A DNA stretch of 40,233 bases, from the NCBI GenBank assembly GCA_947089145.1, contig CAMUJH010000036.1:1-40233 (forward strand), read 5' to 3'. Position 1 is the first letter of the stretch, and each line of letters starts with the position of its first letter. Position numbers and translations under genes: made by a program. Source of the stretch: an uncultured Hungatella sp. Lineage in GTDB: Bacteria > Bacillota > Clostridia > Lachnospirales > Lachnospiraceae. Shown piece after piece: positions 30-20,590 of this stretch. A model generated the notes under the pieces. The model saw nothing but the letters and a program-made list of their open reading frames with translations, was not told the origin of the DNA and did not search any database.

Positions 30-55
30 TGGCCATAACCTATAGGTTTTGGTCA
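30..55 (-). terminator. Imperfect dyad, terminator-like on minus strand (copy 1)
   Basis: An imperfect inverted repeat is centred on AACCTATAGGTT, with 9 of 11 arm positions paired. Read on the minus strand it is followed by CC and a run of six T (22-27), which is the shape of an intrinsic terminator for leftward transcription. It is similar, in the same orientation, to the dyad at 156-183; both contain the 15-mer TGACCAAAACCTATA or its complement. No minus-strand gene lies to its right, so what it would terminate is unclear. A repressor operator is an alternative. Confidence 0.4.
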
Positions 56-147
56 TAGAAAATGTTGGGTAAATTTCCATAAGAAAAAGGGTTAAGAATA
101 TTGATTTATTGACGATAATACATTAAGATATGGAAGAATCTGTAGTT

Positions 148-183
148 AAAAAAAAGTGACCAAAACCTATACTTTTTGGTCAC
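148..183 (-). terminator. Perfect 10-bp hairpin with T8 tract on minus strand (copy 2)
   Basis: GTGACCAAAA (156-165) pairs perfectly with TTTTGGTCAC (174-183) around an 8-nt loop. On the minus strand it runs straight into eight T (148-155 on the plus strand are all A), a textbook intrinsic terminator for leftward transcription. On the plus strand no T tract follows. It ends 51 nt before the start of the TnpB-like gene. It could stop antisense transcripts from the TnpB/guide-RNA locus, act in both directions, or serve as an operator for that gene. The sequence alone does not decide this. Confidence 0.5.
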
Positions 184-234: not shown

Positions 235-1563
235 ATGCCATCAGACTCTATTTGTAAAATCGTCTGCCAGTATAATCAAGAACCGCTTCTAAAAGAGGAT
301 ATGGATAAACTGCAGGATATAGCCAGGGATTATGGCAAGGTGAAGGAGTATGTCTTCCAGCGTTACGGCGGCATTAAGGGACTGCCTAAAATTTATCCAG
401 GCTATACGGTGCAGAACGAGATGAACCGCAGCGGATTCCGGGATCAGCTGGGACTGCCGTCTGTATATTTTAACCTGGCAGTATTTGATGCGCTGCGGGA
501 CATCAGGAGTCAGTGGACAAGAACAAAAGCCGTGATTTTGGAAAGGGTAAATCAAAATCTTGGACTGGCAGAGGAGGAGAAGCATTATCTGCGGTATGTG
601 CTGAAAGTAAGCAATGCATTTGAGGCGATTCTAAACTGCAGAGATGTGGAATTAAGAAAGGATCTGTTTCAGCAGTATGAATTGCTGAGGGAACCGGTTG
701 ATGCCGGGAAGCTGGACAGTTACCTTCGCAGGCAGGTGCGGCGGATTCATAAGAGGATGAACCTGGGGGCGGCGGACGGATTTTCGATGTCAGAGCGGGC
801 TTATCGGTACGGGGAACATGGCATCTATATTTCTACGAAGGAAAAAAGAAAGCGGATTTTCATACGGCTTACAGATAATAATCAGTATGTGAGACAGCTA
901 TATATAAAGCTTTTTCCAAAACAAGGCAATGTAGAAATAAAGGTGCCGGTCAATGTAAGGATTCAAAGCCATCCTGACTATGCAGGGCAGGTGGGTATCG
1001 CCGTTGGGATGCAGTCTGTGATTGTAACGGATAAAGGAACCCGATACGGTGAGAAACTGTGGGATTATCAGACAGAGATGGCTGGCTGGGTAAGAGCCAG
1101 TGCCCAAAAGTATCATCCCAAGAATGAGGCGGAGTCAGGCAGAAAAAAATACACGAGACAAAAACGCCGCATGACGGAACAGCTTCACAGCTATATTAAT
1201 ATGGAACTGAACCGTTTTTTGAGAACGGAGAAGCCTAAAGTAATTTATGTTCCCAAACTTCCCAGACCCGCAAAGCATGGCGGCAAAAAGGAGATTAATA
1301 ACTCAGTAAATATGTGGCAGAGGGGATATATCCGGAAACGGCTGCAGCAGAAATGCCTGGAACAGTCTGTGGAACTTGTGGAAGTGTTTGGAAAGGATAT
1401 TGGCAGACAGTGCAGCAGATGCGGCGGACTGGGAACGAAAAAAGGCGGAGCCTTCTTATGTCCGGCCTGCGGCTATGAAACGGATTTAAAACAGAATGCT
1501 GCCCAAAATGCAAAAATAAGAGGAATAAAAACAGATCACCAGAGCCTCCATTTAGATGAATGA
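235..1563 (+). CDS. Nuclease-dead TnpB-family protein (TldR-like candidate)
   Basis: This 442-residue protein has the TnpB/Cas12 C-terminal layout. RuvC-I lies near residues 252-262, RuvC-II near 335-345, a CxxC...CxxC zinc finger at Cys393/396/409/412, and RuvC-III just after it. The catalytic Asp of RuvC-I (usually GIDxG) is Ala256 (GIAVG). The Glu of RuvC-II (usually VEDL) is Pro340 (VPKL). The RuvC-III Asp expected two residues before NAA is Lys419, with an Asp at 417. DNA cleavage is therefore unlikely, although the fold and zinc finger look intact and the frame is open. No TnpA and no clear transposon ends are present. AAAGGA at 221-226 supports the ATG at 235. A structured RNA resembling a TnpB guide scaffold follows directly. 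In known TldR proteins a dead TnpB plus guide RNA represses a promoter; that role here is inference. A merely decaying transposon gene is the alternative, but loss of all three catalytic residues in an otherwise intact gene argues against it. Confidence 0.8.
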   Translation: MPSDSICKIVCQYNQEPLLKEDMDKLQDIARDYGKVKEYVFQRYGGIKGLPKIYPGYTVQNEMNRSGFRDQLGLPSVYFNLAVFDALRDIRSQWTRTKAVILERVNQNLGLAEEEKHYLRYVLKVSNAFEAILNCRDVELRKDLFQQYELLREPVDAGKLDSYLRRQVRRIHKRMNLGAADGFSMSERAYRYGEHGIYISTKEKRKRIFIRLTDNNQYVRQLYIKLFPKQGNVEIKVPVNVRIQSHPDYAGQVGIAVGMQSVIVTDKGTRYGEKLWDYQTEMAGWVRASAQKYHPKNEAESGRKKYTRQKRRMTEQLHSYINMELNRFLRTEKPKVIYVPKLPRPAKHGGKKEINNSVNMWQRGYIRKRLQQKCLEQSVELVEVFGKDIGRQCSRCGGLGTKKGGAFLCPACGYETDLKQNAAQNAKIRGIKTDHQSLHLDE

Positions 1564-1624
1564 AAGCTATACGCTTTGATTTTACCTGGCAGGGGAATTT
1601 GGCCTTTGCAGACAGGACTGGGTG

Positions 1625-1778
1625 GAAGTTCATGATATAAAAATCATTTACGGCATTGGAAGGCACGGTTTTAAGGAAAACTTGAACTGTGCGCATTGGG
1701 TATGCCACGACTTCGGGAACACAGCTTTGTGACGTACCGGGGAGCGAAGTGAAAGTATTCACATCATTCAGAAAAATT
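1625..1778 (+). ncRNA. Candidate guide RNA (omega-RNA-like scaffold plus guide) of the dead TnpB
   Basis: The non-coding DNA after the TnpB-like stop codon folds into consecutive hairpins. ATGAT/ATCAT pairs at 1632-1636 and 1643-1647. GCACGGTT/AACTGTGC pairs at 1663-1670 and 1685-1692 with one G-U. ACTTCG/CGAAGT pairs at 1710-1715 and 1745-1750 and encloses CACA/TGTG at 1720-1723 and 1728-1731. GGTA (1699-1702) could form a pseudoknot with TACC (1735-1738). A last hairpin, GTGAA-AGTA-TTCAC, ends at 1762. TnpB guide RNAs are encoded at and beyond the 3' end of tnpB, fold around a pseudoknot and carry the guide at their 3' end. By analogy the guide would start at about 1763 (ATCATTCAGAAAAATT). 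Boundaries are estimates; the 5' end may overlap the coding region. Confidence 0.6.
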
Positions 1779-1833
1779 TTCCGGATGACCAATATATCTT
1801 ATTAATCTATAAGCAGATTTTAAAATAGGCTTT

Positions 1834-1919: not shown

Positions 1920-1986
1920 GTCGGGTTTAAAAAAGTATATATACCATATTTATTATACGGCATCTTTAGAAAAGGAATGAAAAAAT

Positions 1987-4542
1987 ATGAGAAAAGCGCA
2001 AAAGAAGCAGATGGAGGATTTTATAAAGCTGCTGGAGCAGGCTCATATAGAAATAAAAAAAAATATTGAGGCAGGCAAAAGGGAAATTTCTCTGGGACTG
2101 CTGGAACAATGTCAGGAAGGAGCCATTGAATTAGGCAAGCTCATAGAACAGGAGGAGGGAGAGGATTTTGTAACCATTCCCCTTCTAGAATCCTATTGTG
2201 AGACGGTTTACAAGGCTTACGAAGGATTGAGGAAAGGGCAGGATGTCAGTGGCAGCCGGATCTATAAAAATCTTCGGAGATCCTTGATCAAGGCTGAAAA
2301 CAGCGTAAAGCATGACATCAAGACACGGTTGGAAGTGGTTTTTCTTCCGTATAAGGCATCTATGTGGGACAGCCTGGAAAGCGTCTGGATGGCAGCCGAT
2401 GCTGATCCGGACTGTGACGCATATGTGATGCCGATCCCATATTATGACAGAAATCCGGATAAAAGCTTTGGAGCAAGGCATTACGAGGGGGATGATTTCC
2501 CTGATTACGTTCCCATAACCGATTTTGAGAAGTATAATCTGGCAGATAGACGGCCGGATGTGATTTATATACATAATCCATATGATAATGGAAATTACGT
2601 TACCAGCGTAGATCCCAGATTCTACTCATGGGAGTTAAAAAATTATACAGATTGTTTAGTATATATACCTTATTATTCAACGGCAGGAGGAATGAGCGAG
2701 GTACAGTCCCTTTGCCTGTCATATTTTTATGCAGATTACATTATTGTGCAATGTGAAAAGATGATCGGCTATTTTGACTCCAGGGTACCCAGAGAGAAAT
2801 TTCTTCCGCTTGGATCGCCGAAATTTGACCGGGTAATACGAATGTGCCAGAATCCTCAGGAAGCTCCAAAAGCATGGAAAGAAAAGATGCAGGGCCGGAC
2901 AGTGTACTTTTATAATACAAGCCTTGGGGGAATGCTGGCCAATACAGAGGCATTTCTCAAGAAGATGGAATACGTATTTCAATGCTTTGAAGGGCGGGAT
3001 GACGCCTGCCTGCTGTGGAGGCCTCATCCGCTGCTGGAGCCGACTTTTGATTCCATGAGAAATCAGTATTATCCGTGGTTTATGAGACTGAAAGAACAGT
3101 TTATTGAAAGCGGCCTGGGAATTTATGACGACACTCCGGATATTACGAAAACCATTGCGCTTTGCGATGTGTATGTGGGTGACGGGGGGACATCGGTTAC
3201 TTCTCTGTTTGGGATGGCAGGAAAGCCCATATTTATATTGAACAATATGATTCATTCGCTGCCGGAGAGGGAGGATTGGCGGGGGGAGAAGATTAATCCT
3301 GTGTTTGACAAATGGGGGAATGATCAGTATCAGATTTTAAATAACCAGCTGTGGTATTCGGAAAAGAATGATTACCATTATAGATTTTACATGGATTTGG
3401 GGACTGGGTATGCAGGGGGCAGGTATTACATGTGTGCGGTTGAGATAAGGGGCGCAATCTATGTGCTTCCCCGCAATGCCCGGAATCTTTTGATTATAAA
3501 GGATAAAAAGATAAGGAAGGTTGCGTTTCGGGAGCAGATGGATCAGGCAGGGGCATTCTGGAGCAGCTGGTACAATGACAGATATATTTTTCTGTTTCCA
3601 TATAAGTATCCGCTGTTAGTCCGCTTTAACATCCAGACAGAAGAAATTCACTATGTGGAAGGCATTACATCATTTAATGTGAAATACATAGGAAAGGGAT
3701 GGCAGACAGGGGGCATAGGTATTTACGGAAATGAACTGGTTTTTGCTTCGCCTGAGGATGGCAGCTTTATTTTTATGGATATTGATACCCTGAAGGTAAG
3801 AGAACTGAGCAGCGGTACAAAAAGTAACTTTGGAGTTCAGACGATCATCACGGAAGGGGAAAATTTGTGGCTGCTGCCAATGAACAAAATAACATTAGCC
3901 TGCTGGAATCCAACTACAGGGGACGTAAGGGAATATGATGATTTACCGGAGGACTTTCAGTCAGTGAGATGGCCAAATGGGGAGAAATGCCAGGAGCAGC
4001 CTTTTGGGAATATGGCCTTTTCAAAAGAGGACGGTAAGGATAATATTATTATTTCGCCCAATTTTGGGAATATGTATCTGACCCTTAACAGGGTAACAGG
4101 AAAAATGGAAAAATGGGAGACGCCTATACCCTTTGAACCTTCAGGTCAAAACGGATATTTCGCAGTAGGAAATACAGGCGGCTTTTGTACCAGTTCCCGC
4201 ATGGACCGTATGAAGATTAATGGGGAAATACGCCGGATTTGGTATCGGCCTGAGAGAAGGCTTTACGATGTGAATATTAACACAAAGGAATGCAGCGAAA
4301 TCAAAATCATTTTTGATGTTGAGGAACTGAAAGCTCATGAACCTGGATTCATGGAAAACTCCGAATGGATGCAGTACTGCTTAATGGAAAATGCGTTTAA
4401 CTCCCTGAAAGATCTGTTGGATGGCGCTGTCATGGGAAGACCCTTTGACCGGGAAAGGCAAATCAAGGCTTACGGGAAAATCAATATAAATGTTGACGGT
4501 ACCTGCGGAGAGACAATACATCGCTTTATGGAGCATTTATGA
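1987..4542 (+). CDS. CDP-glycerol glycerophosphotransferase-like GT-B with C-terminal beta-propeller
   Basis: The protein has 851 residues. Residues 1-110 are charged and helical, probably a coiled coil. Residues 115-420 resemble the GT-B-like fold of TagF/TarF glycerophosphotransferases: an N-terminal lobe starting VVFLPYKASMWDSLESVW, a C-terminal lobe with LWRPHPL, and a donor-site-like DVYVGDGGTSVTSLFGMAGK near residue 394. The canonical TWHG and DYSS motifs of the family are not obvious. Residues 430-790 hold repeated short beta blades (for example LLIIKDKKIRKV and IFMDIDTLKVREL), suggesting a propeller that could bind acceptor or partner proteins. No signal peptide or membrane segment is seen. 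AAAGGA at 1971-1976 supports the start. It is the first gene of the island and overlaps the next by 4 bp (ATGA), suggesting coupled translation. A role in polyol-phosphate transfer is inferred from fold and neighbours. Confidence 0.6.
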   Translation: MRKAQKKQMEDFIKLLEQAHIEIKKNIEAGKREISLGLLEQCQEGAIELGKLIEQEEGEDFVTIPLLESYCETVYKAYEGLRKGQDVSGSRIYKNLRRSLIKAENSVKHDIKTRLEVVFLPYKASMWDSLESVWMAADADPDCDAYVMPIPYYDRNPDKSFGARHYEGDDFPDYVPITDFEKYNLADRRPDVIYIHNPYDNGNYVTSVDPRFYSWELKNYTDCLVYIPYYSTAGGMSEVQSLCLSYFYADYIIVQCEKMIGYFDSRVPREKFLPLGSPKFDRVIRMCQNPQEAPKAWKEKMQGRTVYFYNTSLGGMLANTEAFLKKMEYVFQCFEGRDDACLLWRPHPLLEPTFDSMRNQYYPWFMRLKEQFIESGLGIYDDTPDITKTIALCDVYVGDGGTSVTSLFGMAGKPIFILNNMIHSLPEREDWRGEKINPVFDKWGNDQYQILNNQLWYSEKNDYHYRFYMDLGTGYAGGRYYMCAVEIRGAIYVLPRNARNLLIIKDKKIRKVAFREQMDQAGAFWSSWYNDRYIFLFPYKYPLLVRFNIQTEEIHYVEGITSFNVKYIGKGWQTGGIGIYGNELVFASPEDGSFIFMDIDTLKVRELSSGTKSNFGVQTIITEGENLWLLPMNKITLACWNPTTGDVREYDDLPEDFQSVRWPNGEKCQEQPFGNMAFSKEDGKDNIIISPNFGNMYLTLNRVTGKMEKWETPIPFEPSGQNGYFAVGNTGGFCTSSRMDRMKINGEIRRIWYRPERRLYDVNINTKECSEIKIIFDVEELKAHEPGFMENSEWMQYCLMENAFNSLKDLLDGAVMGRPFDRERQIKAYGKININVDGTCGETIHRFMEHL

Positions 4543-5897
4543 AAAGAGTAATTACATATGGAACCTTTGACCTCTTTCATGAAGGACATTACCGGCTGCT
4601 TGAGAGAGCGAAAGCGCTGGGAGACTATTTGATTGTGGGAGTGACTACAGAGGCATATGACAAGACAAGAGGCAAACTGAATGTAGTTGATTCTCTGATG
4701 GTACGGATTGAGAATGTAAAAAGGTCAGGATTTGCGGATGAGGTCATTATAGAAGAAACGTTTGGACAGAAAATTAATGATATAAAAAAATATCATATTG
4801 ATATTTTTACCGTAGGCTCTGATTGGACAGGGACATTTGACTATTTGAAAGATTATTGCCAAGTGGTGTATTTGGAACGGACTAAAAATATTTCCAGCAC
4901 CATGCTGCGGGAGCAAAACAGCCGTATCCAGCGGATTGGAATCGTAGGAAGCGGCAGGATAGCCAACCGGTTTGTGGCAGAGGCCCGCCATGTCAGCGGC
5001 GTTAATACTCAGGGAGTGTATAATCCCCGCAGGGAGAGCGCATTCAGTTTTGCAAAAAAGTGGCAGATTGACGGGTACGATGAGCTGGAGGAATTTTACA
5101 ATGCCATAGATATCGTATATATTGCATCTCCCCACGAAACTCATTACGGATATATTAAGTCGGCACTGGAGCATGGGAAGCATGTGCTTTGTGAAAAGCC
5201 TATGGTTTTGAGGCAGGAACAGGCTGAAGAATTATTTTCTTATGCAAAGGAAAAAAAACTGGTTTTATTTGAAGGGATTAAGACGGCTTACTGTCCGGGA
5301 TTTCACAAATTGCTGGGATTTGCCGGCAGCGGAACGGTAGGAAGCATACGAAATATAGAGACATGCTTTACTAAACTTGAAAGGACGGACAGCAGGGAAC
5401 TGACAGACAGGGTGTACGGCGGCAGTTTTATTGAACTTGGAAGTTATGTGATGCTTCCCATTCTGAAACTTTTTGGAAGAGGGTTTGAGGATATTCGGTT
5501 TGATACTATCAGGGGAAAGAACGGGCTGGATATTTTTACGAAGGTTTCTCTGAAATATCCCATGGGGATTGCCACAGCCACCTGCGGCCTTGGAGTAAAG
5601 TCGGAGGGAAGGCTTCTGATCGCCGGAACAAGAGGGTATATTGTGGCGGAAGCTCCATGGTGGAAGACCAGTTATTTTGAGGTTCATTATGAAAACGCAG
5701 AGGAAGTTGAAAAATATTCGGAGCGCTTCTTAGGAGATGGGCTGAGATATGAGATCAGTGATTTCCTTTCGATGATTAACGGAAACAGAAGCAGTGAATT
5801 TAAGCTGACAAGAGGAGAGTCAGAGGCTCTGGCTGGCATAATGGAAGCGTTTATGAGAGTTGAAAGACGAGGGTCTGTTTATCCGGCGGAGAAATAA
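4539..5897 (+). CDS. Fusion: glycerol-3-phosphate cytidylyltransferase-type domain plus Gfo/Idh/MocA oxidoreductase
   Basis: Residues 1-130 are a TagD/GCT-type cytidylyltransferase with [10 protein letters not shown] (HxGH at 14-17) and the second signature RTKNISST. Such domains make CDP-glycerol or a related CDP-alcohol from CTP and a phospho-alcohol. From about residue 134 the chain continues as a Gfo/Idh/MocA NAD(P) oxidoreductase, with the dinucleotide motif [12 protein letters not shown] and the EKP motif (CEKPM, near 217-221) whose Lys is usually catalytic. One protein could therefore reduce or oxidise a small polyol or sugar precursor and activate it with CTP; substrate channelling is inference. 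The length (452 aa) is the sum of a TagD of about 130 and an oxidoreductase of about 320. It lies between the GT-B gene and licD, with a 4-bp upstream overlap. Confidence 0.8.
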
Positions 5898-5940
5898 AAA
5901 GGGACATAATTTTGGTCGGAACTGGAGACAGGTAAAGAAT

Positions 5941-6807
5941 ATGAAGAAAAATGCAGCAGGAAAAGAATTTAACTATACGCCTGAATTAATTCGCAGAATC
6001 CAATTGATTGAACTGGAAATGCTGAAGGAGCTGGATATCATATGCCGGGAAAACAATATTCATTATGAATTAGACGGCGGAACTTTACTGGGAGCTGTCA
6101 GGCATAAGGGATTTATTCCCTGGGATGATGATATTGACGTAAGGATGCTGCGCACAGATTATGATAAATTCTGCAGAGTTTGCAAACACAAATTAAATAA
6201 GAAAAAGTATTTTCTGCAGACCTATAGGACAGATCCCGGATACCGTTGGGGATATGCAAGAATTCTTAGAAAGGGTACCTATTTCAGCCGGAAGAATCAA
6301 GAGATGCTTACTATGAAAAGAGGAATCTTTATTGATATTTTTCCTTGTGACAATATGCCGGAGGCAGGGATACCAAAGGCGATCTATAATTTCAGATGTT
6401 TTTTTGCCAGAAAAATGGCGTATTCACCGGTTGGAGCTGTTCATGATTCCAACATAGTCAAAAGGTTCTGTTACCGTATTCTTAGAAAAGTGCCCAAAAA
6501 AGTATTTTGTAAAGAATTTGAAAGGCTTGCATACCAATATGCCAAGAAAAATACCAGACTCATCAGGACGCCGGGCTGGGGGGCGCCTGAGGAGAACAGA
6601 GGATTTTTAAGAGAATGGATGGACAATTCCTGCGAAATTGTGTTTGAAGGCTTGACAGTAAAGGCTCCGGCGGATGCGGATGGATTTTTGCGGTTTATGT
6701 TTGGAAATGATTATATGACATTACCGCCGGAAGCTGACAGAAAGCCGAAGCATACAGCGACGCATATAGAATTTGGAGAATATGTTAAACAAGGAGAACC
6801 AAAATGA
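5941..6807 (+). CDS. licD: LicD-family phosphotransferase
   Basis: This 288-residue protein carries the LicD signature: [20 protein letters not shown] followed by DDDIDV near residues 60-66. The Asp cluster is the metal-binding catalytic site of this nucleotidyltransferase-fold family. LicD enzymes move phosphocholine, or in relatives other phospho-alcohols, from a CDP donor to a glycan. The donor here is plausibly made by the LicC-like enzyme encoded immediately downstream, with which the gene overlaps by 4 bp (ATGA at 6804). I chose ATG 5941, preceded by GGAG at 5924-5927. An in-frame ATG at 5860 would lie inside the previous gene and add a basic, non-conserved leader. No membrane segment is visible. 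Confidence 0.85.
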
Positions 6808-8798
6808 GGATTGAAGAGTTTAACTTTTTGTATGGGATTCATAAACAGGGCGCGGCCATTATGTTAGAAGATATTGGGAAAGCCCTGGGGTATGAGCCGG
6901 CCCGGACTGAAAAAATTCTTTCCAACTTAAGAGAAAAAGGATGGCTTGATAAAAGAATTACAGATTCAGGATATGAAGCACTGAAGGACTATAAAGTAGA
7001 TAATGCCATTATAATGGCGGCTGGATTTGGATTAAGAAGCCTGCCGCTGTCCAGATATGTGCCGAAGGGACTATATAAAGTCAGAGATGAAGTGCTTGTG
7101 GAACGGCAGATAGAACAGATTCTTGATGCAGGGATCAAAGAGATAATTGTTGTTGTAGGATATTTAAAAGAGCAGTTTATGTATTTAAAAGAAAAATATG
7201 GCGTTATAATCGTTGAAAATGATGATTATTACAGATATAACAATATCTCATCCATCTATGCAGCAAAAGACTATTTAAAAAACAGCTATATATGCTGTTC
7301 AGATAATTATTTCAATGTCAATGTGTTTGAAGAGTACGTATATGATTCATACTATTCATGTAAATATACAGAAGAGTATGCGGATGAACACTGTGTTATA
7401 AAAACGGACGGAGAGTACATAAAAGAGATAAAAAAGGGCGGCAGCAAAGCATGGTATACAATAGGAGAGGCATATTTTTCTAACGAGTTCAGCAAAATTT
7501 TTCTCGGGTATTTGGAAGAGGAATATGAAGATGCTGAGACAAGGAAACTGATATGGGATGACTTTCATATACGCCATATAAGCGATCTGAAACTCCGCCT
7601 TTATAAGTATAATGACGATATTGTCCAGGAATTTGATTCTATGGAGGATATTATTAAGTTTGATCCGGATTTTGTTAATTACAGAGAAGAGATTTTAAAA
7701 AAGAAGAATGCAGAATATAATGACATGCCTCATCCGCTGGCTAAATATGAGGATATGGGGCGGTATAACTCGGCTACAACAGATCAACACGAAGGAAGGC
7801 TCCATTTAAATGAAAATACATTTGGGCCAAGCTTAAAATGCCTTGAAGTATTAAAAGAAATAACTGTACAGGACTTATATGAGTATGATATGGCAACAGA
7901 GGATTTTTTAATAAATGCGATATCAAAAGCTTTTTCTATGCCGGCAGATGATATTTACATTCACAATGGATCTGCAGAGATTATAAAATCCGTTTTCTCC
8001 ATAGCATTGGAGAGAAACGACTGCATTTTAACATCTGATCCGGGATGGAATTATTATGCCAGCATAGCTAAGGAAAAGTTTTGCGATGTCTACTATTATA
8101 AGGTGCGCAGAGACGATTACAGCTACTATATTGATGTAAAGGATATATTAGAAAAGGCTAAAAGGCATAAACCAAGGATAATTGTATTGACCAGCCCTCA
8201 CAATCCTACCGGCTGCAAGCTTGACGGCAATGCAATAGAAATTATCATAAAAGAAAATCCGGATTCCTTAATTCTGCTGGATGAGGCTTACTGGGGATTT
8301 TCAGAAGAAGATGTTGACACAAGAAGGCTGGTGGAATCTTATACTAATGTGATTATTTCAAGAACATTCTCAAAGTTTTATGGGCTGGCAAACATAAGAA
8401 TCGGATTTGGATTTTGCAATTCTAAAGTAAAGCACATTTTTGGATTAGATTTACCGCTTTTCAGGGAAAGCTCCATATCAAGAAAAATAGCTGCTGCGGC
8501 TTTATCTGACGGAAAATATTATGAAAGTGTGAACAGGAAACTAAATGAAATAAAAGTTTGGTTTACAGATTCTTTAAATAAAATTCCTCAGATACATGCC
8601 TTTGCATCACATTCAAACTTTGTCGCAGTACAAATAGAAGGCGTTGATATGCAGATGCTGCAGAAACAGCTGAGAGAAAGCGGCATTCTAATTCGTCTGT
8701 TCGGTGATGATGAAGACTGCCTGGCAAGAATCGCGATTTCATCAAAGGAGATAATGGAAAAGACAGTGGAAGTCATTGCTGATATAATGAAAAATTAA
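6804..8798 (+). CDS. Fusion: winged-helix, LicC-type nucleotidyltransferase, class I/II aminotransferase
   Basis: The protein has 664 residues in three parts. Residues 1-62 look like a winged-helix DNA-binding domain ([19 protein letters not shown], then [10 protein letters not shown]). Residues 65-300 are a sugar-phosphate-nucleotidyltransferase domain with [19 protein letters not shown], the GxGxRxxPxxxxxPK signature shared with LicC (CTP:phosphocholine) and PntC (CTP:2-aminoethylphosphonate). Residues 310-660 are a PLP aminotransferase of the HisC/AspC type, with [16 protein letters not shown] and the PLP-lysine motif [16 protein letters not shown] (Lys near 521). LicC-aminotransferase fusions are known in phosphonate tailoring, where the aminotransferase makes 2-aminoethylphosphonate before CMP activation. 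No PEP mutase lies in the window, so the substrate stays open between an amino-alcohol phosphate, an aminophosphonate and an amino sugar alcohol. Upstream LicD is the likely user of the product. Confidence 0.8.
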
Positions 8799-8810
8799 AG
8801 GAATAGTGAA

Positions 8811-9826
8811 ATGCTGAAAATTTTTAGTGAGTTCAGAAGAAAGTTAGATGAAGTTATGGTAAAGGCTATTCACAGGCGGGTTGTGCTGTATGGATACGGA
8901 AGAACCGGACAGTTTTTACAATGGTATGCAGACTATTATCACAGCATAAAGATAGATTTTATTGTAAAAGAGGATATGAAAGCCAGAATACCATACAGCT
9001 TCTCTCTTTTCCGCCGACAGTCTTTGATTTTAACTATAAAGATATAAGGGATGCTGTTGTATGGATCGCTTTTAATAATAATGAGGAAGCAAAACAGAAA
9101 TTAGAGCAGTTAGGATATAAGAACAGGGAAAGTTATTTTGATTTCTGCGAAATAATTTACGGCAGTGACAGAATATGGAGGGGCAAAAATGATGAAGATA
9201 ACCGTTTTATACAGAGAAAAACAGGAAATCGGGATATTCAGTTTTTAGAATGGCTGGAATATAAATACGGATGTAACTTTGTGACAGAAGTTGATATTTC
9301 TGCTTATGAAAACAGATTAGACATAGTTGCAGGGTATAAAGTGACTGCGATGAGGGAAATTTTTTCGATTTTAGATAAATGCCACTGTGTTTCGAACAAA
9401 GATTCAATTCTTGATATTGGATGCGGAAAAGGCGGCAGCCTTCTGGCTTTTTTAGACTATGGCTTTGAGACGGTGGGCGGCGTGGAGCTAGAGGAGAAAA
9501 TGTACAATGTTTTAAAACGCAACTTAGAACTGCTTGAGGACAAGTTACATGAAGATGTGCAGGTGTACTGCCAGGACGCAATGGAGATGACAACAGAGCT
9601 GGATAAGTATAATTGGTTTTACTGCTTCTTAAGCGATGGGGATTTCTGGAGCATGCTGGCGGAACATATTGCTGACAGCGTCAGAAGAAATGCAAGGAAG
9701 GTAACAATTATCGTTAGGAATCCATTTCCATATGACATATTTGAGAAAAACGGTTTTATATTAACCAATCAATTTGAAATTGATACGCGCCAGAGAGCGG
9801 TAAATATTTATGTAAATAATCTGTAA
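8811..9826 (+). pseudogene. Rossmann-domain plus SAM methyltransferase, frameshifted
   Basis: Two overlapping frames together encode one protein of about 337 residues. Frame one starts at ATG 8811 and encodes a Rossmann-like module (VVLYGYGRTGQFLQ) up to about SFSLF. The second frame resumes at PPTVFDFNYKD near 9010 and runs to 9826. It holds the rest of the module and a class I SAM methyltransferase with ILDIGCGKGGSLL at about 9408-9446. The switch is -1 (or +2) within or next to the pyrimidine tract CTTCTCTCTTTTCC around 9000-9015. The downstream frame has no good ribosome binding site of its own at its first ATG (8921). It may be a true pseudogene, a phase-variable gene with slippage in the TC/T tract, or an assembly error. 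The methyl acceptor is unknown; a sugar in the island glycan is the obvious guess. Confidence 0.75.
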
Positions 9827-9860
9827 GAAGCAGTTTTCTCATCAAGCGGAGGATCGAAAG

Positions 9861-11030
9861 GTGGAAACAAGACTGAACAGGCTGACAAAAACGGATTGGA
9901 AGGATTTAAAGGATATAATCCTTTTCGGATACGGAAGATATGGGAGCCGGGTTCTGCCATATTTGCAGAAAGATTTTAACATTGTGGCAATCGTAGACAA
10001 TGATGTTCAAAAGCAGGGGAAGATCGTAGACGGGATATCCATTGTTAATTTAAAAGAGGCTCAGGAACTTTTACATAATTATAAAGTTATTGTTGCTGTC
10101 CAGGCATTTTTCTATGCTGAGATTTGTAAACAATTAGAAGAAATGGGATTGAGGGAATATGATGATTTTATAATATGGAGCCAGTTTTTTCCGGAATGGT
10201 ATTATAAATATCAAAAAAAGATATGTGTTGAGAAAACAGATATTGTAATAACTTCTTTTTGCAGCCTTAACTGTGAAAGCTGCTCGGCATTTATCCCTTA
10301 TATTAAAGAAAAGAAACATGAGAAACTAAAAGACCTGGAGAACAGCATACGTTTATTCTTTGAACGGGTGGACAGAGTTCAGGACATGAACCTGTACGGC
10401 GGAGAACCTTTCCTCCATCCTCAGCTATGCGGGATTATTGAATTGCTGGGAAAATACAGACATAAGATAGGATATTTAGGTATTATTACAAACGGCACGA
10501 TTATTCCCGATTCCCAGGTACTTCACATGCTTAAAAAATATCATATTGGAGTTTCCATCAGCGACTATTCCGCCTCGATAGATTATAAAGGAAAATTGGA
10601 TAGGCTGTGTAAGATACTGAATGAGAATGAAATCAGCACCGTCAGAACTGTAAATATGATATGGTTTGATTTGGGATTTCCGCGAAAAAAGATGAGATAT
10701 GGAAGGGAAGAAGCAAAAACACATATGACATCTTGCAATACGGCGTGTCACGATCTGATTGACGGAAAAATATATTATTGTATTGCGGATCGTGCGGCTC
10801 AGTTAGGCGGCTTGATACCATATAGTAAAAAGTCTTATGTAGATTTGAATACGATTGATAAGGACAGCTTAGAATCGCGAAAAGAAATTTTAGAGCTGTG
10901 CGCAGGCAATATTGAAGGGGGATATCTGGACTTTTGTCAGCTATGCGGCGGATTTGGTTATGATAATAAAGATGAGATTTTGGCGGCAAAGCAGATTAAT
11001 AAAAATGTAAAAGATAACGAGGACTTATGA
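9861..11030 (+). CDS. Radical SAM protein with N-terminal Rossmann-like domain
   Basis: This is a 389-residue protein with a GTG start behind GCGGAGGA (9847-9854 region). Residues 15-110 form the island's recurring Rossmann module (IILFGYGRYGSR). The radical SAM core follows, with the cluster motif CxxxCxxC at Cys134, Cys138 and Cys141 (SFCSLNCESC), and GGEP at 180-183 for SAM binding. After the core, further cysteines (SCNTACHDLIDGKIYYC, then CQLCGG) suggest an auxiliary Fe-S cluster of the SPASM/Twitch sort. Such proteins modify peptides or sugars by radical chemistry, for example dehydrogenation or epimerisation. There is no precursor peptide gene nearby, so a sugar or nucleotide-sugar substrate fits the context better. 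The stop overlaps the start of the next gene. Confidence 0.8.
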   Translation: METRLNRLTKTDWKDLKDIILFGYGRYGSRVLPYLQKDFNIVAIVDNDVQKQGKIVDGISIVNLKEAQELLHNYKVIVAVQAFFYAEICKQLEEMGLREYDDFIIWSQFFPEWYYKYQKKICVEKTDIVITSFCSLNCESCSAFIPYIKEKKHEKLKDLENSIRLFFERVDRVQDMNLYGGEPFLHPQLCGIIELLGKYRHKIGYLGIITNGTIIPDSQVLHMLKKYHIGVSISDYSASIDYKGKLDRLCKILNENEISTVRTVNMIWFDLGFPRKKMRYGREEAKTHMTSCNTACHDLIDGKIYYCIADRAAQLGGLIPYSKKSYVDLNTIDKDSLESRKEILELCAGNIEGGYLDFCQLCGGFGYDNKDEILAAKQINKNVKDNEDL

Positions 11031-12325
11031 TGAGATACGTTATATGGGGAGCCGGCCTGCGGGGAAGGCGATTATTCGGGCACCTGAAAGAGGAGGACGT
11101 GGCGGCTTTCGTGGATAAAAGCAGTGATAAAATCGGAAGTTCTTTTTGTGGAAAGAAAGTTATTAGCCTGGACGAGTATGCGAAACACTGTAATGAAGCG
11201 ATTTTAGTCATTGCTCATACGTTTGAAGAGAATGCGGCAAAAGAGCTGGAAAGCTTAGGCATAAAAAACTATATGCGGCTGTCAGATTGTCCGGGAGAAT
11301 TTCAGGAGGAAAATACAAGGCCATTATTAAAAAACTATGTGAAAAGCCTGTTAAACAGCTGGGACACATATGGAATAAGGGGATGCACTGTTTATGGGCT
11401 GGAAGTATATTCATGGCTGTCTGAAATCGGAAATACCCATTCTTATATGATTATAGATAACAGCGTGCCGCCTGAGACTGTTAAGCTAATAAAAGAAAGC
11501 GGCTATAGCATTTTAACAGAAGACCACGTTTGTGAAGGAAAACTGGGCAGGATTTTAAATTGTACCTACGAAGAGCAGGCGGAAAATTTGTTTGAGGGAA
11601 TCCAACAAAGCAATTTATATGACTGCTCAGATGTAATTGAGGAGTATTATAATTCGGAAATTGAAAAACTAAAAAACAGCCATAAAGGCCAGGCATGCGT
11701 TATTGTTGCCACAGGCCCCAGTTTGAAAATGGAAGACTTAAATACATTGGCGGAAAGACAGATTACAACGTTTGGCGTAAATATGATTGGGTATGCATAT
11801 GCTTCCACAAAATGGAGGCCAACCTATTTTGTCGGTGAGGACAGGGCTTTAATGGAAAGCGAATATTTTAGCAAGATCAAACCGGCAAAAGAGAGTAAGT
11901 ATGCTTTTTTGGCAGATACCGGCAAGACTTTTTGGGAAAATGAACAGCCTCCCAATATATTGAAATTTCATTTGTGCGATGAGTGGGCCTTCGGGAGATA
12001 TCCGAAATTTTCGGAGGACTTTTCAAGAAAATCGTATGTGGGAGGAACGGTTGTATACACATGTATTCAGCTTGCTGTATATATGGGATTTCAAAAAATC
12101 TATTTGCTGGGAGTTGATTTTACAGGTGCAAAAGAGCATGGCAGCAAATACAGCCATTTTTATGCGGAAAAGGAGCTTACGTCAGTCAGCTATACGGATC
12201 AGGTCAGTTTAGCTTATGAAAAAGCAAAAAAGTATGCAGACGAGCATGGAATAAACATATATAATGCGACCCGCGGAGGAAAGCTGGAGGCATTTGAGAG
12301 AGTAGGTTTTGACAGTCTGTTTTAA
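11027..12325 (+). CDS. Maf/DUF115-type glycosyltransferase with two N-terminal Rossmann-like modules
   Basis: The protein has 432 residues. Residues 1-95 are a Rossmann-like module (YVIWGAGLRGRRLFG). Residues 105-200 look like a second, weaker one (VYGLEVYSWLSEI). From about 222 the DUF115 / MptE-like core begins with VIVATGPSLKMEDL and continues through TFGVNMIGYAY and YLLGVDFTGAKEHGSKYSHF. This family includes the motility accessory factors (Maf) that transfer nonulosonic acids to flagellin in the cytoplasm, and its fold resembles GT42 sialyltransferases. The nonulosonate genes follow directly (KdsC-like, NeuB, NeuA), which strongly suggests that this enzyme uses their CMP-sugar. The acceptor could be flagellin or another protein. 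ATG 11030 is an equally good start. Confidence 0.7.
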   Translation: MMRYVIWGAGLRGRRLFGHLKEEDVAAFVDKSSDKIGSSFCGKKVISLDEYAKHCNEAILVIAHTFEENAAKELESLGIKNYMRLSDCPGEFQEENTRPLLKNYVKSLLNSWDTYGIRGCTVYGLEVYSWLSEIGNTHSYMIIDNSVPPETVKLIKESGYSILTEDHVCEGKLGRILNCTYEEQAENLFEGIQQSNLYDCSDVIEEYYNSEIEKLKNSHKGQACVIVATGPSLKMEDLNTLAERQITTFGVNMIGYAYASTKWRPTYFVGEDRALMESEYFSKIKPAKESKYAFLADTGKTFWENEQPPNILKFHLCDEWAFGRYPKFSEDFSRKSYVGGTVVYTCIQLAVYMGFQKIYLLGVDFTGAKEHGSKYSHFYAEKELTSVSYTDQVSLAYEKAKKYADEHGINIYNATRGGKLEAFERVGFDSLF

Positions 12326-12343
12326 GAAAAAGAGGGACCATGT

Positions 12344-13408
12344 GTGATTAAAATGCTGGTGTTTGATATAGATGGCGTTATATCAGACGGAAGAAGATAT
12401 ACAGATGGAGGAGAACTGGAACTTAAGACCATACAGCTGAAAGATTTGGATGCCATTGGAATGCTTGCGGACAGCGGCTATAAACTTGGCTGTATATCTG
12501 GTGAAGATACAGAGTTTAGCAGACAGTTTGCCAGGATGAAAACAATCAGCTTCGTTAAACTGGGATGCAAAGATAAGAAGGCCGAATTACAGAAGCTTGC
12601 AAAAGACTGCAGGCTTCAATTGGCGGAGATTTGCTATATTGGTGACGGCAAATACGATATACCGGCTTTACAATCGGCAGGTCTGGCTGTGTGCCCCAAT
12701 GACGCAATAGAAGAAGTAAAAGAGATATGTGATATTGTCTTAAGAAAAAGGGGAGGGGAGGGATGTATCGCCGAATGCTGTTCCATCCTCTTGAATAATA
12801 AGGAAACCCAGAAGAAGGCAATAGACTTATCAAAACATGATTTATCAGGAATGAAGGAAATCATAAAAGAGCATCAAAATATTATTCAGGCCATACTGGA
12901 TGACAAGGAGTACCTTTTTCATGTAGAACAGTCAATAAGGATAGTTGCTGACAGTTATAGAAAAGACGGGAAGCTTTTTATATACGGAAATAGCCTTGCA
13001 CAATATTTGGCTGCTGAGTTGATGAAATGCTTCTGGTTAGGGCGTAAGGCATGGAGCCCGGAGATTTTAATGAACAGCGTGCCGATGATGAAGGCGTTTG
13101 CCGATTCCCATGGATGCGATTGTGCCTTTGCGCAGGAGATAGAGGCCAGAGTAAGAGCCGGAGATGTATTGCTAGGGATTACAACGGGTGAGATAGAAAA
13201 AGGCATTTGTGAGGGTTTTAGAAGGGCGAAAAAGATAGGGGCAGAAACTATATTAATGGCTGACAGGATTTCAAGATACTTGGATATTTTCAATTATATA
13301 GATTGTATGATAAACATACCGTCCAGGAACCAATTAAGGACTGAGGAGATACATATGTTAACAGGTCATCTGATTTGCGAGGGAGTAAAATATCGGTTTA
13401 CCAAGTGA
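12344..13408 (+). CDS. Fusion: KdsC-type HAD phosphatase plus GmhA-like SIS domain
   Basis: The protein has 354 residues and a GTG start. Residues 1-150 are a KdsC-family HAD phosphatase with FDIDGVISDG (Asp8 and Asp10), ISGED, and GDGKYDIPAL near 100-110. KdsC relatives remove the phosphate from Kdo-8-P, KDN-9-P or Neu5Ac-9-P. Residues 190-345 are a SIS domain nearest GmhA (IYGNSLAQYLAAELM, then EEIHMLTGHLICE). The GmhA-type catalytic Glu (AAEL) and His (EIH) are present. The sugar-phosphate-binding serines are not: GITTGEIEKG stands where GISTSGNS is usual, and the GGSAADA loop is shortened. The SIS half may thus be a binding or regulatory domain, or an isomerase with altered specificity. 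Its position before neuB and neuA ties it to nonulosonate or ketoaldonate synthesis. Confidence 0.75.
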   Translation: MIKMLVFDIDGVISDGRRYTDGGELELKTIQLKDLDAIGMLADSGYKLGCISGEDTEFSRQFARMKTISFVKLGCKDKKAELQKLAKDCRLQLAEICYIGDGKYDIPALQSAGLAVCPNDAIEEVKEICDIVLRKRGGEGCIAECCSILLNNKETQKKAIDLSKHDLSGMKEIIKEHQNIIQAILDDKEYLFHVEQSIRIVADSYRKDGKLFIYGNSLAQYLAAELMKCFWLGRKAWSPEILMNSVPMMKAFADSHGCDCAFAQEIEARVRAGDVLLGITTGEIEKGICEGFRRAKKIGAETILMADRISRYLDIFNYIDCMINIPSRNQLRTEEIHMLTGHLICEGVKYRFTK

Positions 13409-13437
13409 AATCTATAATTAAAGGAGATAAAAAGAAA

Positions 13438-14268
13438 ATGGAACATGTATTTATTGTAGGAGAAATTGGAATTAATCATAACGGGGATTTAAAGATTGCA
13501 AAGGAATTAATTGACTGGGCTGCTTTAGCCGGCTGCGACGCAGTTAAATTTCAAAAGAGAACTGTGGACAAGGTATATACAAAGGAATATTTAGACGGAT
13601 ATCGGGAAAGTCCATGGGGGACGACTCAAAGGGAGCAGAAAGAAGGGCTTGAATTTGGACTGGAAGAATATAAGGTGATTGATGAGTACTGCAAAAGCAA
13701 AGGGATTGCATGGTTTGCTTCTGCATGGGATATGGATTCACAATATTTTTTAAGGCAGTTTGATTTAAAATACAATAAGATTGCCTCCGCAATGTTAACC
13801 AATACAGAGCTGCTTAAAGCAGTTGCCAGCGAGGGAAAATATACGTTTATCGCAACCGGGATGAGCACATATGAGGAAATTGATTGCGCTGTCGGCATTT
13901 TTAGAGAGTATAACTGCCCGTTTGAACTGATGCACTGCAATAGTACATACCCTATGCCCAAAGAGGATGCCAATCTGCGGCTGATTCCTGCATTAAAAGA
14001 AAGATACCAGTGCAAAGTCGGTTATAGCGGACATGAATCAGGAAGAATTGTGTCAACAACAGCGGCTGCGTTAGGCGCTACATCCCTGGAAAGGCATATT
14101 ACATTAGACAATACCATGTATGGTTCGGATCAGGCTGCTTCTTTAAATGTAAGAGATCTGGTTAGATTAATAGAGGATGTGCGGCTAATTGAAAAGGTAT
14201 TGGGAAACGGTGAAAAGATTTTAAGCGCAAGAGAACTTGAGACAAGAAAGAAATTAAGAGGATGTTAG
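13438..14268 (+). CDS. neuB: NeuB-family nonulosonic acid synthase lacking the SAF domain
   Basis: The protein has 276 residues and starts with GEIGINHNGDLKIAKELI near residue 9. It carries the NeuB TIM-barrel landmarks DAVKFQKR, ELMHCNSTYP, KVGYSGHE and SLERHITLD. NeuB enzymes condense phosphoenolpyruvate with an N-acylhexosamine or, in NANS-like relatives, its 6-phosphate. Typical NeuB proteins are about 340-350 residues with a C-terminal antifreeze-like (SAF) domain that completes the active site in the dimer. This protein stops right after the barrel (ELETRKKLRGC), so the SAF domain is absent. KdsA-type synthases also lack it. I chose ATG 13438 behind AAAGGAG; an in-frame ATG at 13375 lies inside the previous gene. 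The KdsC-like phosphatase next door points to a phosphorylated intermediate. Confidence 0.85.
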   Translation: MEHVFIVGEIGINHNGDLKIAKELIDWAALAGCDAVKFQKRTVDKVYTKEYLDGYRESPWGTTQREQKEGLEFGLEEYKVIDEYCKSKGIAWFASAWDMDSQYFLRQFDLKYNKIASAMLTNTELLKAVASEGKYTFIATGMSTYEEIDCAVGIFREYNCPFELMHCNSTYPMPKEDANLRLIPALKERYQCKVGYSGHESGRIVSTTAAALGATSLERHITLDNTMYGSDQAASLNVRDLVRLIEDVRLIEKVLGNGEKILSARELETRKKLRGC

Positions 14269-14279
14269 GAGAATCCGTC

Positions 14280-14951
14280 ATGAACGTGGCATTTATTCCA
14301 GTGCGGGGAGGAAGTAAGTCAATTCCACTAAAAAATATAAAAAAAATAGCCGGCAGGCCATTGGTTTACTGGACGGCAAAAGCAGCAAACGATTGTGAAA
14401 GCATAGATAAGGTGTATGTGTCAACAGATAGTTTCCAAATTAAAGAGACAGTTGAAAGTTTTGCTCTGGAGAAGGTAATCGTTGTGGGGAGAAGTGAGGA
14501 GACGTCTTCGGATACAGCATCTACGGAATCTGCCATGCTGGAGTTTGCAGGTCAATATGAATTTGATAACATTTTTCTGATTCAGGCCACTTCACCGTTA
14601 TTAGAAGCAAAGGATCTGACAGAAGGATATAAATTATTCTGCCAAAAGGAGACGGACAGCGTTTTTTCGGCTGTAAAACAGAAACGGTTTCATTGGCTGG
14701 TTGATGGAGACGGTTATGCATATCCTGCAAATTATGATCCGTTCCATAGGCCAAGACGGCAGGATCATGAGGGATATTATGTAGAAAACGGAGCTTTTTT
14801 TATAACAGGAAGAAGGAATCTTTTAGAAAGCAGAAACCGGATGTCAGGGAAGATAAAATTATATGAAATGGATGAAAGCTCTTATTTCGAGATAGATGAG
14901 CCGTCAGATTGGCTCATTATAGAGGAGCTGTTAAAAAGAAGACAAAATTAA
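14280..14951 (+). CDS. neuA: NeuA-type CMP-nonulosonate cytidylyltransferase
   Basis: The protein has 223 residues and opens with FIPVRGGSKSIPLKNIKKIA near residue 5, the R-x-G-S-K-x-(I/L)-P-x-K-N signature of CMP-sugar synthetases. QATSPL, RPRRQD and FEIDEPSDW are the other family landmarks. It activates a nonulosonic or ketoaldonic acid with CTP for the Maf-like transferase or another glycosyltransferase of the island. ATG 14280 sits nine bases after GGAG (14267-14270). The upstream in-frame start at 14262 overlaps neuB. Length is usual for stand-alone NeuA. The exact sugar (Neu5Ac, legionaminate, KDN or other) cannot be told because no NeuC, LegB or PseB-type enzyme is in the window. Confidence 0.88.
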   Translation: MNVAFIPVRGGSKSIPLKNIKKIAGRPLVYWTAKAANDCESIDKVYVSTDSFQIKETVESFALEKVIVVGRSEETSSDTASTESAMLEFAGQYEFDNIFLIQATSPLLEAKDLTEGYKLFCQKETDSVFSAVKQKRFHWLVDGDGYAYPANYDPFHRPRRQDHEGYYVENGAFFITGRRNLLESRNRMSGKIKLYEMDESSYFEIDEPSDWLIIEELLKRRQN

Positions 14952-14983
14952 GCAGACAATTTTACTTTTGCGGAGGTATTGAT

Positions 14984-16273
14984 ATGCCGGTAGAGGAGGA
15001 GTGGAAAAAAATTATAGATGAAAACCAATCTATATACATATACGGAGCGGGCAATATCGGGAAAAAAATATTACGCTTAATAGAGAAGACAGAAAATGCC
15101 GCTTTAAAAGTACAGGGCTTTTTAGTGTCGGATATGACAGGAAATCCTGAAAGGATTGATAAATACTATGTTACAGTGCCTCAGAATTTATCTGATAGGG
15201 ACAGTCTGATACTGGTGGCTGTAACTGATGTCTATCAGGATAATATTATTGACAGTTTAAAAATGCTGGGATTTTCCAATGTTGTTACTGCCTATAAATA
15301 TTCCTTTATCGGAGGCGAAGATGAATGGGACAGCCAGCCCAAAATAATAAAAGTAGATACACATGAATTATTACTATGCCAATACCGAGCCGGCTTATTT
15401 AATCGCTATGATATAATTGTCAGGCTGCTTGCCATAGAAAACTATTATGGAAAAAATCAGTGCGGTTTTGCCTTATATCAAAAAATGCAGAATATGCGGA
15501 CCAATGATAAGGAATATGGAAAAATTTCAATGCAAAGATTTATAAGGCTGATACAGTCCTATGAAAAATACGGATATGACGAAAATTCAGAGTTAGTAGT
15601 TGACGAGGATTTGCATTTAATTGACGGTTCGCACAGGCTGGCGCTGGCAATTTATTTTGGAACTATGAGATTGCGGGTCAGAGCAGTGAAGAGAGAGGAC
15701 AAAATCTGGTATGGGGAGGAATGGTTTACCCGGAGATTTTCCATGGACGAGTATAAGATGATGAGGGAAAGGCTATTCATGGTGGAAAAACGATGGGGAG
15801 ATTCCATAAAGGGAATCCTATGGCCGAGCGTATCAGAATATTTTAATGAAATTGTAGAATTAATCAGAACACAATATTCTGTGACAAATATAAAAGACAT
15901 TGTTTTAAACTTAGAAAAGTTTGAAAAAAAGGTTTATCAGGTCTATGAGGTAGACAGTATTGCCCAGTGGAAAATAAACACGAAATTAAAATATATGAGG
16001 CAATTTTCTCCTTACTATATCAGAACCTTCGATATTGATATGGGAAATCCGGAATTTAGAATAAAGAAGGCGGGAGATGGGATTCTTTCGGATAAAGGGG
16101 CCAGGTTAAAGGAAGAAATACGCAATAGGTATAAGGGACGGGTTCAGGGATATTTTTCTGACATTATTTTTCATACAGCGGATAATTTTTATCAAAGCAG
16201 ATATATTGATAAGATATTTATGGAAGAGAAACAAAATGAGCCCAATGTGTTAGGAGTTGCTGATGAAAATTAG
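14984..16273 (+). CDS. Rossmann-like domain plus ParB/sulfiredoxin-like domain protein
   Basis: The protein has 429 residues; ATG 14984 is behind CGGAGGT (14971-14977). Residues 17-110 are the island's Rossmann module (IYIYGAGNIGKKILRLI). The middle region, around residues 200-230, reads ELVVDEDLHLIDGSHRLALA, which matches the ParB N-terminal / sulfiredoxin fold signature (V-D-x-x-x-x-L-I-D-G-x-H-R). Proteins of that superfamily include ParB CTPases, sulfiredoxin and a serine kinase, so nucleotide binding is plausible. The C-terminal part (250-429) is rich in charged and aromatic residues and not recognised. A chromosome-partition role is very unlikely here. A glycan or protein phosphorylating role is possible but unproven. 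Confidence 0.5.
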   Translation: MPVEEEWKKIIDENQSIYIYGAGNIGKKILRLIEKTENAALKVQGFLVSDMTGNPERIDKYYVTVPQNLSDRDSLILVAVTDVYQDNIIDSLKMLGFSNVVTAYKYSFIGGEDEWDSQPKIIKVDTHELLLCQYRAGLFNRYDIIVRLLAIENYYGKNQCGFALYQKMQNMRTNDKEYGKISMQRFIRLIQSYEKYGYDENSELVVDEDLHLIDGSHRLALAIYFGTMRLRVRAVKREDKIWYGEEWFTRRFSMDEYKMMRERLFMVEKRWGDSIKGILWPSVSEYFNEIVELIRTQYSVTNIKDIVLNLEKFEKKVYQVYEVDSIAQWKINTKLKYMRQFSPYYIRTFDIDMGNPEFRIKKAGDGILSDKGARLKEEIRNRYKGRVQGYFSDIIFHTADNFYQSRYIDKIFMEEKQNEPNVLGVADEN

Positions 16274-17012: not shown

Positions 17013-17028
17013 AAGGACTAACACTGCA

Positions 17029-18219: not shown

Positions 18220-18241
18220 GAAGAATATCGGAGGAGAAAAA

Positions 18242-20555: not shown

Positions 20556-20590
20556 CGCAAAATACGGAGTAAAAAGGAAATAAAACTAAT

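Follow-up and report, generated by a model that had tools for sequence, protein, structure and literature searches.

A nuclease-dead TnpB homologue behind an invertible promoter at a Lachnospiraceae surface-glycan locus, a probable RNA-guided repressor of other glycan operons

The DNA analysed here, called the window, comprises the 40,233 nucleotides of contig CAMUJH010000036.1 (GenBank assembly GCA_947089145.1) from an uncultured Hungatella sp. of the Lachnospiraceae. A TnpB-like gene lies near its left end, preceded by a promoter between inverted repeats and followed by a putative guide RNA and a long run of surface-glycan genes. The features are as follows.

33..52, no strand: left inverted-repeat arm CCATAACCTATAGGTTTTGG, bounding the invertible segment (sequence, repeat search).
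101..129, + strand: promoter-like TTGATT - 17 nt (with TTGACGATA) - TAAGAT inside the invertible segment, directed towards the dead TnpB gene, i.e. ON in the assembly (hexamers found by eye).
160..179, no strand: right inverted-repeat arm CCAAAACCTATACTTTTTGG (sequence, repeat search).
235..1563, + strand: nuclease-dead TnpB-like (TldR-like) protein of 442 aa with A256/P340/K419, frame intact (ORF, profiles, alignment).
1570..1790, + strand: guide-RNA scaffold, 5' boundary uncertain, with covarying terminal hairpins at 1749-1762 and about 1764-1788 (motif and covariation).
1791..1807, + strand: guide-position sequence AATATATCTTATTAATC, 3' end approximate (motif across loci).
1934..1950, + strand: target-like site AGTATATATACCATATT in the operon leader, mismatched to the guide of its own locus (motif comparison).
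1987..4542, + strand: 851-aa gene that comes first after the RNA, without a Pfam family at E 0.01 and with a target-like site in its LVYIPYY codons (Pfam, motif).
2658..2675, + strand: target-like site AGTATATATACCTTATTA, with one mismatch to the own guide in the 12-nt core and an exact 12-nt match to the guide of the copy on contig C34 (motif comparison).
4539..33616, + strand: surface glycopolymer genes (ORFs, Pfam, NCBIfam).
11027-12325, + strand: MptE-like gene among them (Pfam/NCBIfam).

The protein encoded at 235..1563 matches the Pfam family Cas12f1-like_TNB (E 3.2e-7) and no other at E 0.01, and it scores 45 bits against the NCBIfam model guided_TnpB, under the curated cut-off of 100. 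Like the TnpB proteins of IS200/IS605 and IS607 elements it has a zinc finger, a RuvC region and a 3' RNA, but unlike them it lacks the catalytic acids, has no Y1 TnpA found nearby and shows no sign of mobility. The first-pass annotation, made from the letters of the window, had placed Ala256, Pro340 and Lys419 at the three catalytic positions, and two alignments bear this out. The first of the corresponding columns is D in 14 of 16 Lachnospiraceae TnpB comparators, the second E in 13 and the third D in 13; 17 proteins were sought for this set, and at least two of the 16 extracted are wrong ORFs. In a PDB profile search the family aligned to 8bf8, which we take to be the ISDra2 TnpB protein, with profile positions 253-428 on chain residues 188-370; provided that the alignment ends are ungapped, position 256 falls on residue 191 and position 419 on residue 361. 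D191, E278 and D361 are presumably the catalytic residues of ISDra2 TnpB. The D/E/D triad of an active TnpB is absent from the window protein.

The loss is not peculiar to this copy. In the genome of origin (G000; 4.46 Mb, 87% complete) there are five full-length copies and one fragment; the four other full-length copies are 36-61% identical to that of the window, all five frames are intact, and all five lack acids at the RuvC positions. Of 299 genomes sampled within the family, this one counted, nine have a match at E <= 1e-20. Scanning GTDB genome contigs gave 211 relatives, the best 80 of which were kept; the titles of these 80 records are mostly Lachnospiraceae, Clostridiaceae, genera thereof or plain 'bacterium', and many are presumably mouse-gut records, going by the record prefixes. 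The aligned set numbers 95 (the five own copies, these 80 and 10 others), of which 94 are distinct because L094 and L112 encode an identical protein; L118, with an internal stop, and the fragments L006, L122 and L124 are left out of the protein counts. At position 256, 62 proteins have A, 30 have S and one has H, with a gap in the two proteins cut before it; at position 340, 43 have V, 38 P, 11 A and three another residue; and at position 419, 87 have K, six R, one A and one G. Acids are thus absent from all three positions throughout the set (0/95, two being cut before the first), and all four zinc-finger cysteines are retained in 95/95. The earlier statement that zinc finger and frame are intact stands, and a lone pseudogene is excluded, as RuvC loss is fixed across the family.

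Ancestry in TnpB and the fragment on contig C62 could be taken to mean that the window holds a decayed transposon copy, or that the family is still mobile and this member dead by chance. We find this scarcely credible given five intact frames in one genome, 0/95 members with an acid at the three positions, the lack of a Y1 TnpA on the five contigs with full-length copies, and the conservation of promoter, RNA and gene context. Matches to Y1-type TnpA in the genome are on C29, C2 and C120, and a Pfam scan of 30 ORFs in the window brought up no transposase or recombinase. The two outcomes that the first-pass annotation had named as fatal to its reading, an intact D/E/D elsewhere and active mobile sisters of one decayed copy, were looked for, and neither was found. 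It had also seen neither TnpA nor transposon ends; the former observation extends, for Y1-type TnpA, to all five contigs, but dyads do exist at 33-52 and 160-179. These are the arms of the invertible promoter and are excluded as transposon ends. With its catalytic residues lost, no Y1 TnpA on the five contigs, inverton repeats and a stable gene context, the gene resembles a domesticated TldR. The C62 fragment (G000:C62:18371-18589) is the remnant of a sixth copy, and a degenerate repeat-like site adjoins it at 18661.

The glycan cluster as a whole extends over 1987-33616. Its 851-aa first gene found nothing under E 0.9 in a PDB search. The genes at 4539..33616 encode a cytidylyltransferase/Gfo-Idh fusion, LicD, a nucleotidyltransferase/aminotransferase, a radical SAM protein, the MptE-like protein, NeuB, cytidylyltransferases, glycosyltransferases and two CDP-glycerol glycerophosphotransferases, and would form one operon. 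The MptE-like protein is presumably of the Maf type, and the adjoining glycan-modification island with a Maf-type enzyme described earlier is real and long. No csrA or flagellin family occurs among the window genes scanned. At 33803-35251 an HPr domain is fused to a D-2-hydroxyacid dehydrogenase, a fusion of which we know no other example.

All five copies in the genome have two inverted repeats upstream and share a promoter-bearing spacer, which points towards the gene in the window and on C7 and away from it on C34, C52 and C24. The repeat motif (<=2 mismatches) gives 25 strand-hits in this genome, with none outside the five loci, C35, C52:4 and C62; the reversed pattern has no hit. Across the relatives a repeat pair (score >=13, 85-140 nt between the arms) is found at 60 of 94 loci, L078 being left out for want of upstream sequence, against two of 190 control windows held to the same score with no spacing filter; the other 34 loci have no qualifying pair. 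Judged by the best match with <=3 mismatches, TTGACGATA points away from the gene at 40 of the 60 loci and towards it at 12, its direction being unclear at eight. Inverted repeats thus surround a promoter that occurs in both orientations among loci, as in an inverton. Long inverted duplications upstream of six relatives (L040, L063, L069, L084, L106 and L109) are likely to be assembly chimeras caused by the inverting segment; three of them (L063, L069 and L084) are counted among the 60.

Positions 1-55 of the window are the reverse complement of C52:1-55, and the overlap is exactly 55 nt and falls at the window's own repeat. The switch is therefore the probable point at which the assembly broke, and the two phase-variable glycan loci, on contigs of 40 kb and 31 kb, are probably adjoining tandem neighbours. 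The contig break further suggests that both orientations coexist within one strain. The genome encodes 17 tyrosine recombinases, none of them on C36, C7, C34 or C52, and the one on C24 is about 31 kb from the locus. This lack of a tyrosine recombinase within 30 kb on the contigs examined, with the tight link of the gene to inverted repeats, would suit a protein that regulates promoter inversion as a recombinase accessory, the RNA being incidental. Such a role is very unlikely: the RNA is conserved with covariation, and the candidate targets described below lie outside the repeats.

The RNA is encoded just 3' of the ORF, as expected for the guide RNA of a TldR. The scaffold motif GGGAGCGAAG follows the ORF in 82 of 95 loci, and CCAATRTNYYTTATT (<=2 mismatches) occurs within the next 300 nt in 79 of these 82. 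The consensus at the guide position, at the end of the structured RNA, is RTNYYTTATT. Directly before it a stem can be drawn in 70 RNAs, with six of six pairs in 48, five in 19 and four in three when the arms are chosen for best fit. Covariation was measured on 42 aligned RNAs, 28 of the 70 having been excluded by hand, mostly for longer loops; 95.9% of cells pair and two-sided changes occur in 10 of 11 pairs. None of 500 shuffles matches any of the five measures, and sliding the partners abolishes the signal. RNAalifold draws an extra outer helix from part of the guide and the 5' end of the scaffold, with no two-sided changes. Rfam gave no family at gathering score for this RNA, only two weak snoRNA matches. 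Neither the promoter switch nor the guide RNA nor the other four copies had been noticed in the first-pass annotation.

Two side observations concern the RNA region. L066 and L068 carry tandem copies of a small-hairpin unit in the variable part of the guide RNA. The leaders of L008 and L009 (the C34 and C52 copies), between guide and first gene, share an element GGTCATAA..CT[AG]TGGTTTC..TGCTAGCGCCCG..CCAT[AG]GATTGTGATA, possibly a leader or antitermination RNA, with no Rfam match at gathering score.

Sequences resembling the guide segment recur behind the gene. In the 95 loci TATRTNYYTTATTW occurs on the + strand 27 times within 2 kb behind the gene and three times elsewhere, against two for the reversed control. 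They fall into two classes, those in the non-coding leader and those in the LVYIPYF/Y codons of a following gene; across 20 leader sites RTNYY varies next to a nearly invariant AAGTWTAT flank. In 33 whole genomes the pattern AGTNTATRTNYYTTATTW gives 49 sites in 26 genomes, each a guide-like match with AGTNTAT before it, and the reversed pattern nine, although part of this excess reflects protein conservation, as 19 of the 49 are CDS sites in conserved LVYIPY codons. Enrichment is confined to the motif with the AGTN flank: without it TATRTNYYTTATTW is not enriched genome-wide (57 against 95 for the reversed control in three genomes), nor does a one-mismatch scan of the own genome show enrichment (58 against 62). 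For two of the four guides of this genome, the 87%-complete assembly contains no exact 12-nt site at any other place. By sequence the guides nevertheless match, like those of TldRs, candidate chromosomal targets beside a fixed flanking motif (TAM).

A dead TnpB lies at most 3 kb ahead of 22 of the 49 sites; the remaining 27 comprise 13 in the CDS of the LVYIPY gene family, 13 scored as leader and one in another ORF. Ten genes beside leader sites outside dead-TnpB loci were assigned by Pfam to DegT (two), cytidylyltransferase/Gfo-Idh fusions (three), a LicC-like nucleotidyltransferase-kinase, a transketolase and DUF1919 (one each), or to no family (two). The LicC-like gene belongs to the own-genome C35 operon (G000:C35:36000-42318; L028, L260), in which SIS, NeuB and CMP-sugar synthetase genes follow; these were identified by reading translations, the first gene alone being Pfam-scanned. 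This operon has the family promoter, a single repeat and a target site and is without a dead TnpB. Because the promoter is present with one repeat only, the operon is probably locked ON, and is probably a locked-ON relative of the switch.

The link to flagellin proposed earlier has fallen away. No flagellin was found among the candidate sites whose neighbours were examined, these neighbours being surface-sugar genes or genes without known family, and flagellin is accordingly rejected as the target among those sites; neither the flagellin/csrA link nor the flagellin targets of csrA- or fliC-associated TldRs are seen. Pfam was run on one early gene from each of 20 loci, either the first or the second ORF after the guide; 11 had no family, and the nine others were DegT (two), GT2, nucleotidyltransferase, CDP-glycerol transferase, NKWYS, LicD, and generic Gfo/Idh and aminotransferase. 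Some of the surveyed loci begin with genes for secreted or membrane proteins, and for these 'surface structure' is perhaps more exact than 'glycan'. L291/L094 and L320 have a dead TnpB, no recognisable guide RNA and a target-like site directly behind the stop, and may be recipients that have lost their own guide.

Guides and sites were compared for 80 loci with guides in 32 genomes, six loci without a recognised guide being left out; the shuffles ignore phylogeny, and the tests were devised post hoc on data already seen. The 12-nt guide core matches the site of its own locus in 0/55 cases, those of other loci in the same genome in 13/126 pairs (leader 12/78, CDS 1/48) and those of other genomes in 181/4219. 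The self matches expected are 2.6 under a within-genome shuffle (P = 0.018 for none) and 2.4 under a global shuffle (P = 0.066). Non-self leader pairs number 12 against 5.9 shuffled (P = 0.01), and leader loci with a sister match 5/17 against 4.1 (P = 0.40). Eighteen of the 49 whole-genome sites match a same-genome guide of another locus (P = 0.004), with a shuffled mean as high as 10.85 because guides and sites share one motif and many matches arise by chance. Self matches in this set are absent (0/19; shuffled mean 2.04, P = 0.10), and the non-self minus self difference gives P = 0.0005. A non-self match occurs in 13 of 26 genomes (shuffled mean 7.75, P = 0.008) and, by site kind, at nine CDS sites against 4.41 (P = 0.003) and nine leader sites against 6.43 (P = 0.14). 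Because the tests are post hoc and relatedness is uncorrected, self-avoidance falls short of proof, but it is likely that the guides avoid their own locus. Own guide and own site differ mostly at the RTNYY positions near the guide start.

Among the best individual matches, the window guide fits the C35 leader, that of another sialate/LicC-like operon, over 13 nt. Sporofaciens musculi has a directed chain of predicted interactions on its 5.4-Mb contig: the L235 leader is matched over 15 nt by the guides of L236 and L237, whose own leaders are matched over 12-15 nt by the guides of L234, L239 and L240 (L234 to L237: 15). In genome G321 the guide of L314 matches a CDS site on C55, away from any dead TnpB, over 16 nt. 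Loci with GTGCC guides have a leader site in 0/18 cases against 17/62 of the others (Fisher P = 0.009, noticed post hoc).

The concentration of target-like sites in the same operon, 27 of them within 2 kb behind the gene, might instead reflect a cis-acting RNA-guided regulator of its own leader or first gene, in feedback repression or an UpxY-like processivity role, with mismatches tolerated. A published TldR is reported to repress despite natural mismatches (PMC13418256). We consider a cis-acting role unlikely nonetheless, since 12-nt self matches number 0/55 and 0/19, the differences fall mostly on RTNYY near the guide start, and 27/49 sites are found apart from any dead TnpB. It is less likely still that CCAATRTNYYTTATT is a structural or processing element of an RNA with no guide, and that the target-like sites are related sequence in other use. 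The segment is, unlike known guides, almost constant over loci, and in the RNAalifold structure part of it folds onto the scaffold's 5' end; but these extra pairs show no two-sided change, the motif and its fixed AGTNTAT flank occur in non-coding leaders of other operons, and RTNYY varies by locus and matches other loci above the shuffled level. The view of the first-pass annotation that the gene is a TldR-like regulator of a surface antigen thus survives in part: fixed dead site, structured RNA and candidate sites support it well at the level of sequence, but simple control of the adjacent operon does not agree with a guide that mismatches the sites of its own operon and matches other glycan operons.

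We regard it as probable that the protein is a TldR-like RNA-guided repressor giving phase-variable cross-silencing of other glycan operons. The protein would be a TnpB derivative that has lost its nuclease activity and kept its guide RNA; both would come from one transcript, the RNA lying directly downstream of the ORF and, in the window, ending in a hairpin and AATATATCTTATTA. The dead TnpB would head a surface-glycan cluster whose promoter lies on a flipping segment of about 0.1 kb; with the segment ON, the glycan enzymes, the dead TnpB and the guide would all be made. The complex would then bind the AGTNTATRTNYYTTATT sites (AGTNTAT + RTNYYTTATT) that other glycan operons carry in their leader or in one conserved gene, and would block RNA polymerase there. 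Its own operon would be spared by the altered seed bases of its sites, and the cell would favour one coat above others. Comparison of sequences shows the fixed RuvC loss, the inverted repeats with a promoter in either orientation among loci, the covarying RNA, the candidate sites with their locations and the non-self excess; from these we infer that a complex forms, binds DNA and represses, that the segment inverts within a strain and that one coat is favoured.

The guide has the sequence of the sense strand and would therefore pair with the template strand, never with mRNA, so that antisense action on mRNA is excluded. dCas12a is described as silencing best with the template strand targeted (PMC12588400). 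An Enterobacter TldR works with guides down to 6 nt, has a 6-nt seed, and retains repression despite natural guide-target mismatches (PMC13418256). Given such short guides and seed, mismatches in RTNYY near the guide start should matter, though mismatch-tolerant repression has been reported. A plausible but tentative extension, which we hold open rather than favour, is a coded RNA-guided mutual-exclusion network, in which RTNYY seed barcodes on guides and on operon sites would decide which phase-variable locus is silencer and which is silenced. Each locus would be immune to its own guide, and there would be an order of dominance, loci with GTGCC guides silencing others and lacking a leader site themselves.

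Two known TldRs, fliC-TldR from prophages of Enterobacteriaceae and oppF-TldR from Enterococcus (Wiegand et al., Nature 2024), reportedly each act from one locus against one host gene. They share with the present family a TnpB origin, a dead RuvC site, a guide RNA 3' of the ORF and RNA-guided repression, the last proposed here. To our knowledge neither has a phase-variable promoter or a link to polysaccharide loci. The csrA-associated TldRs of Oscillibacter and Flavonifractor (Nat Microbiol 2026, PMC13418256) likewise combine a nuclease-dead TnpB and guide RNA with ORF-internal target sites, several loci with predicted cross-targeting and promoter inversions of about 120 bp beside the loci. 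Their targets are flagellin genes, with csrA and a hin recombinase adjoining, whereas the candidate targets here are surface-glycan operons. Furthermore, the window genes that were scanned include neither a CsrA-like gene nor a recombinase, the guides mismatch their own locus, and the records are mostly titled Lachnospiraceae. Because the csrA-TldRs already show adjoining inversions and predicted cross-targeting of flagellin genes, the present family is a variation on TldR and not a new class.

In Bacteroides, UpxY and UpxZ regulators stand first in polysaccharide operons, some with inverting promoters, and UpxZ represses non-adjacent capsule operons as a protein acting via UpxY antiterminators (PMC7315117). 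The resemblance to UpxZ is functional only: the window protein scores as TnpB-like in Pfam and is no UpxZ homologue, and here a TnpB-like protein, a proposed guide RNA and DNA sites take its place. UpxZ is thus the closest functional parallel, and the csrA-TldRs are the closest relatives in kind.

We know of no answer to the question of how Firmicutes with several phase-variable surface polysaccharides avoid making all of them at once; UpxY/UpxZ is the solution of Bacteroides. No earlier report of a TldR at polysaccharide loci was found by title among the matches listed, though an earlier mention may exist elsewhere. If the proposal is true, gut Lachnospiraceae would have an RNA-guided solution, with a readable code that predicts silencer and silenced from sequence alone. 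Its predictions would be directly testable in isolates such as Sporofaciens musculi WCA-9-b2, and the biology of TldRs would be widened from flagellin to surface glycans.
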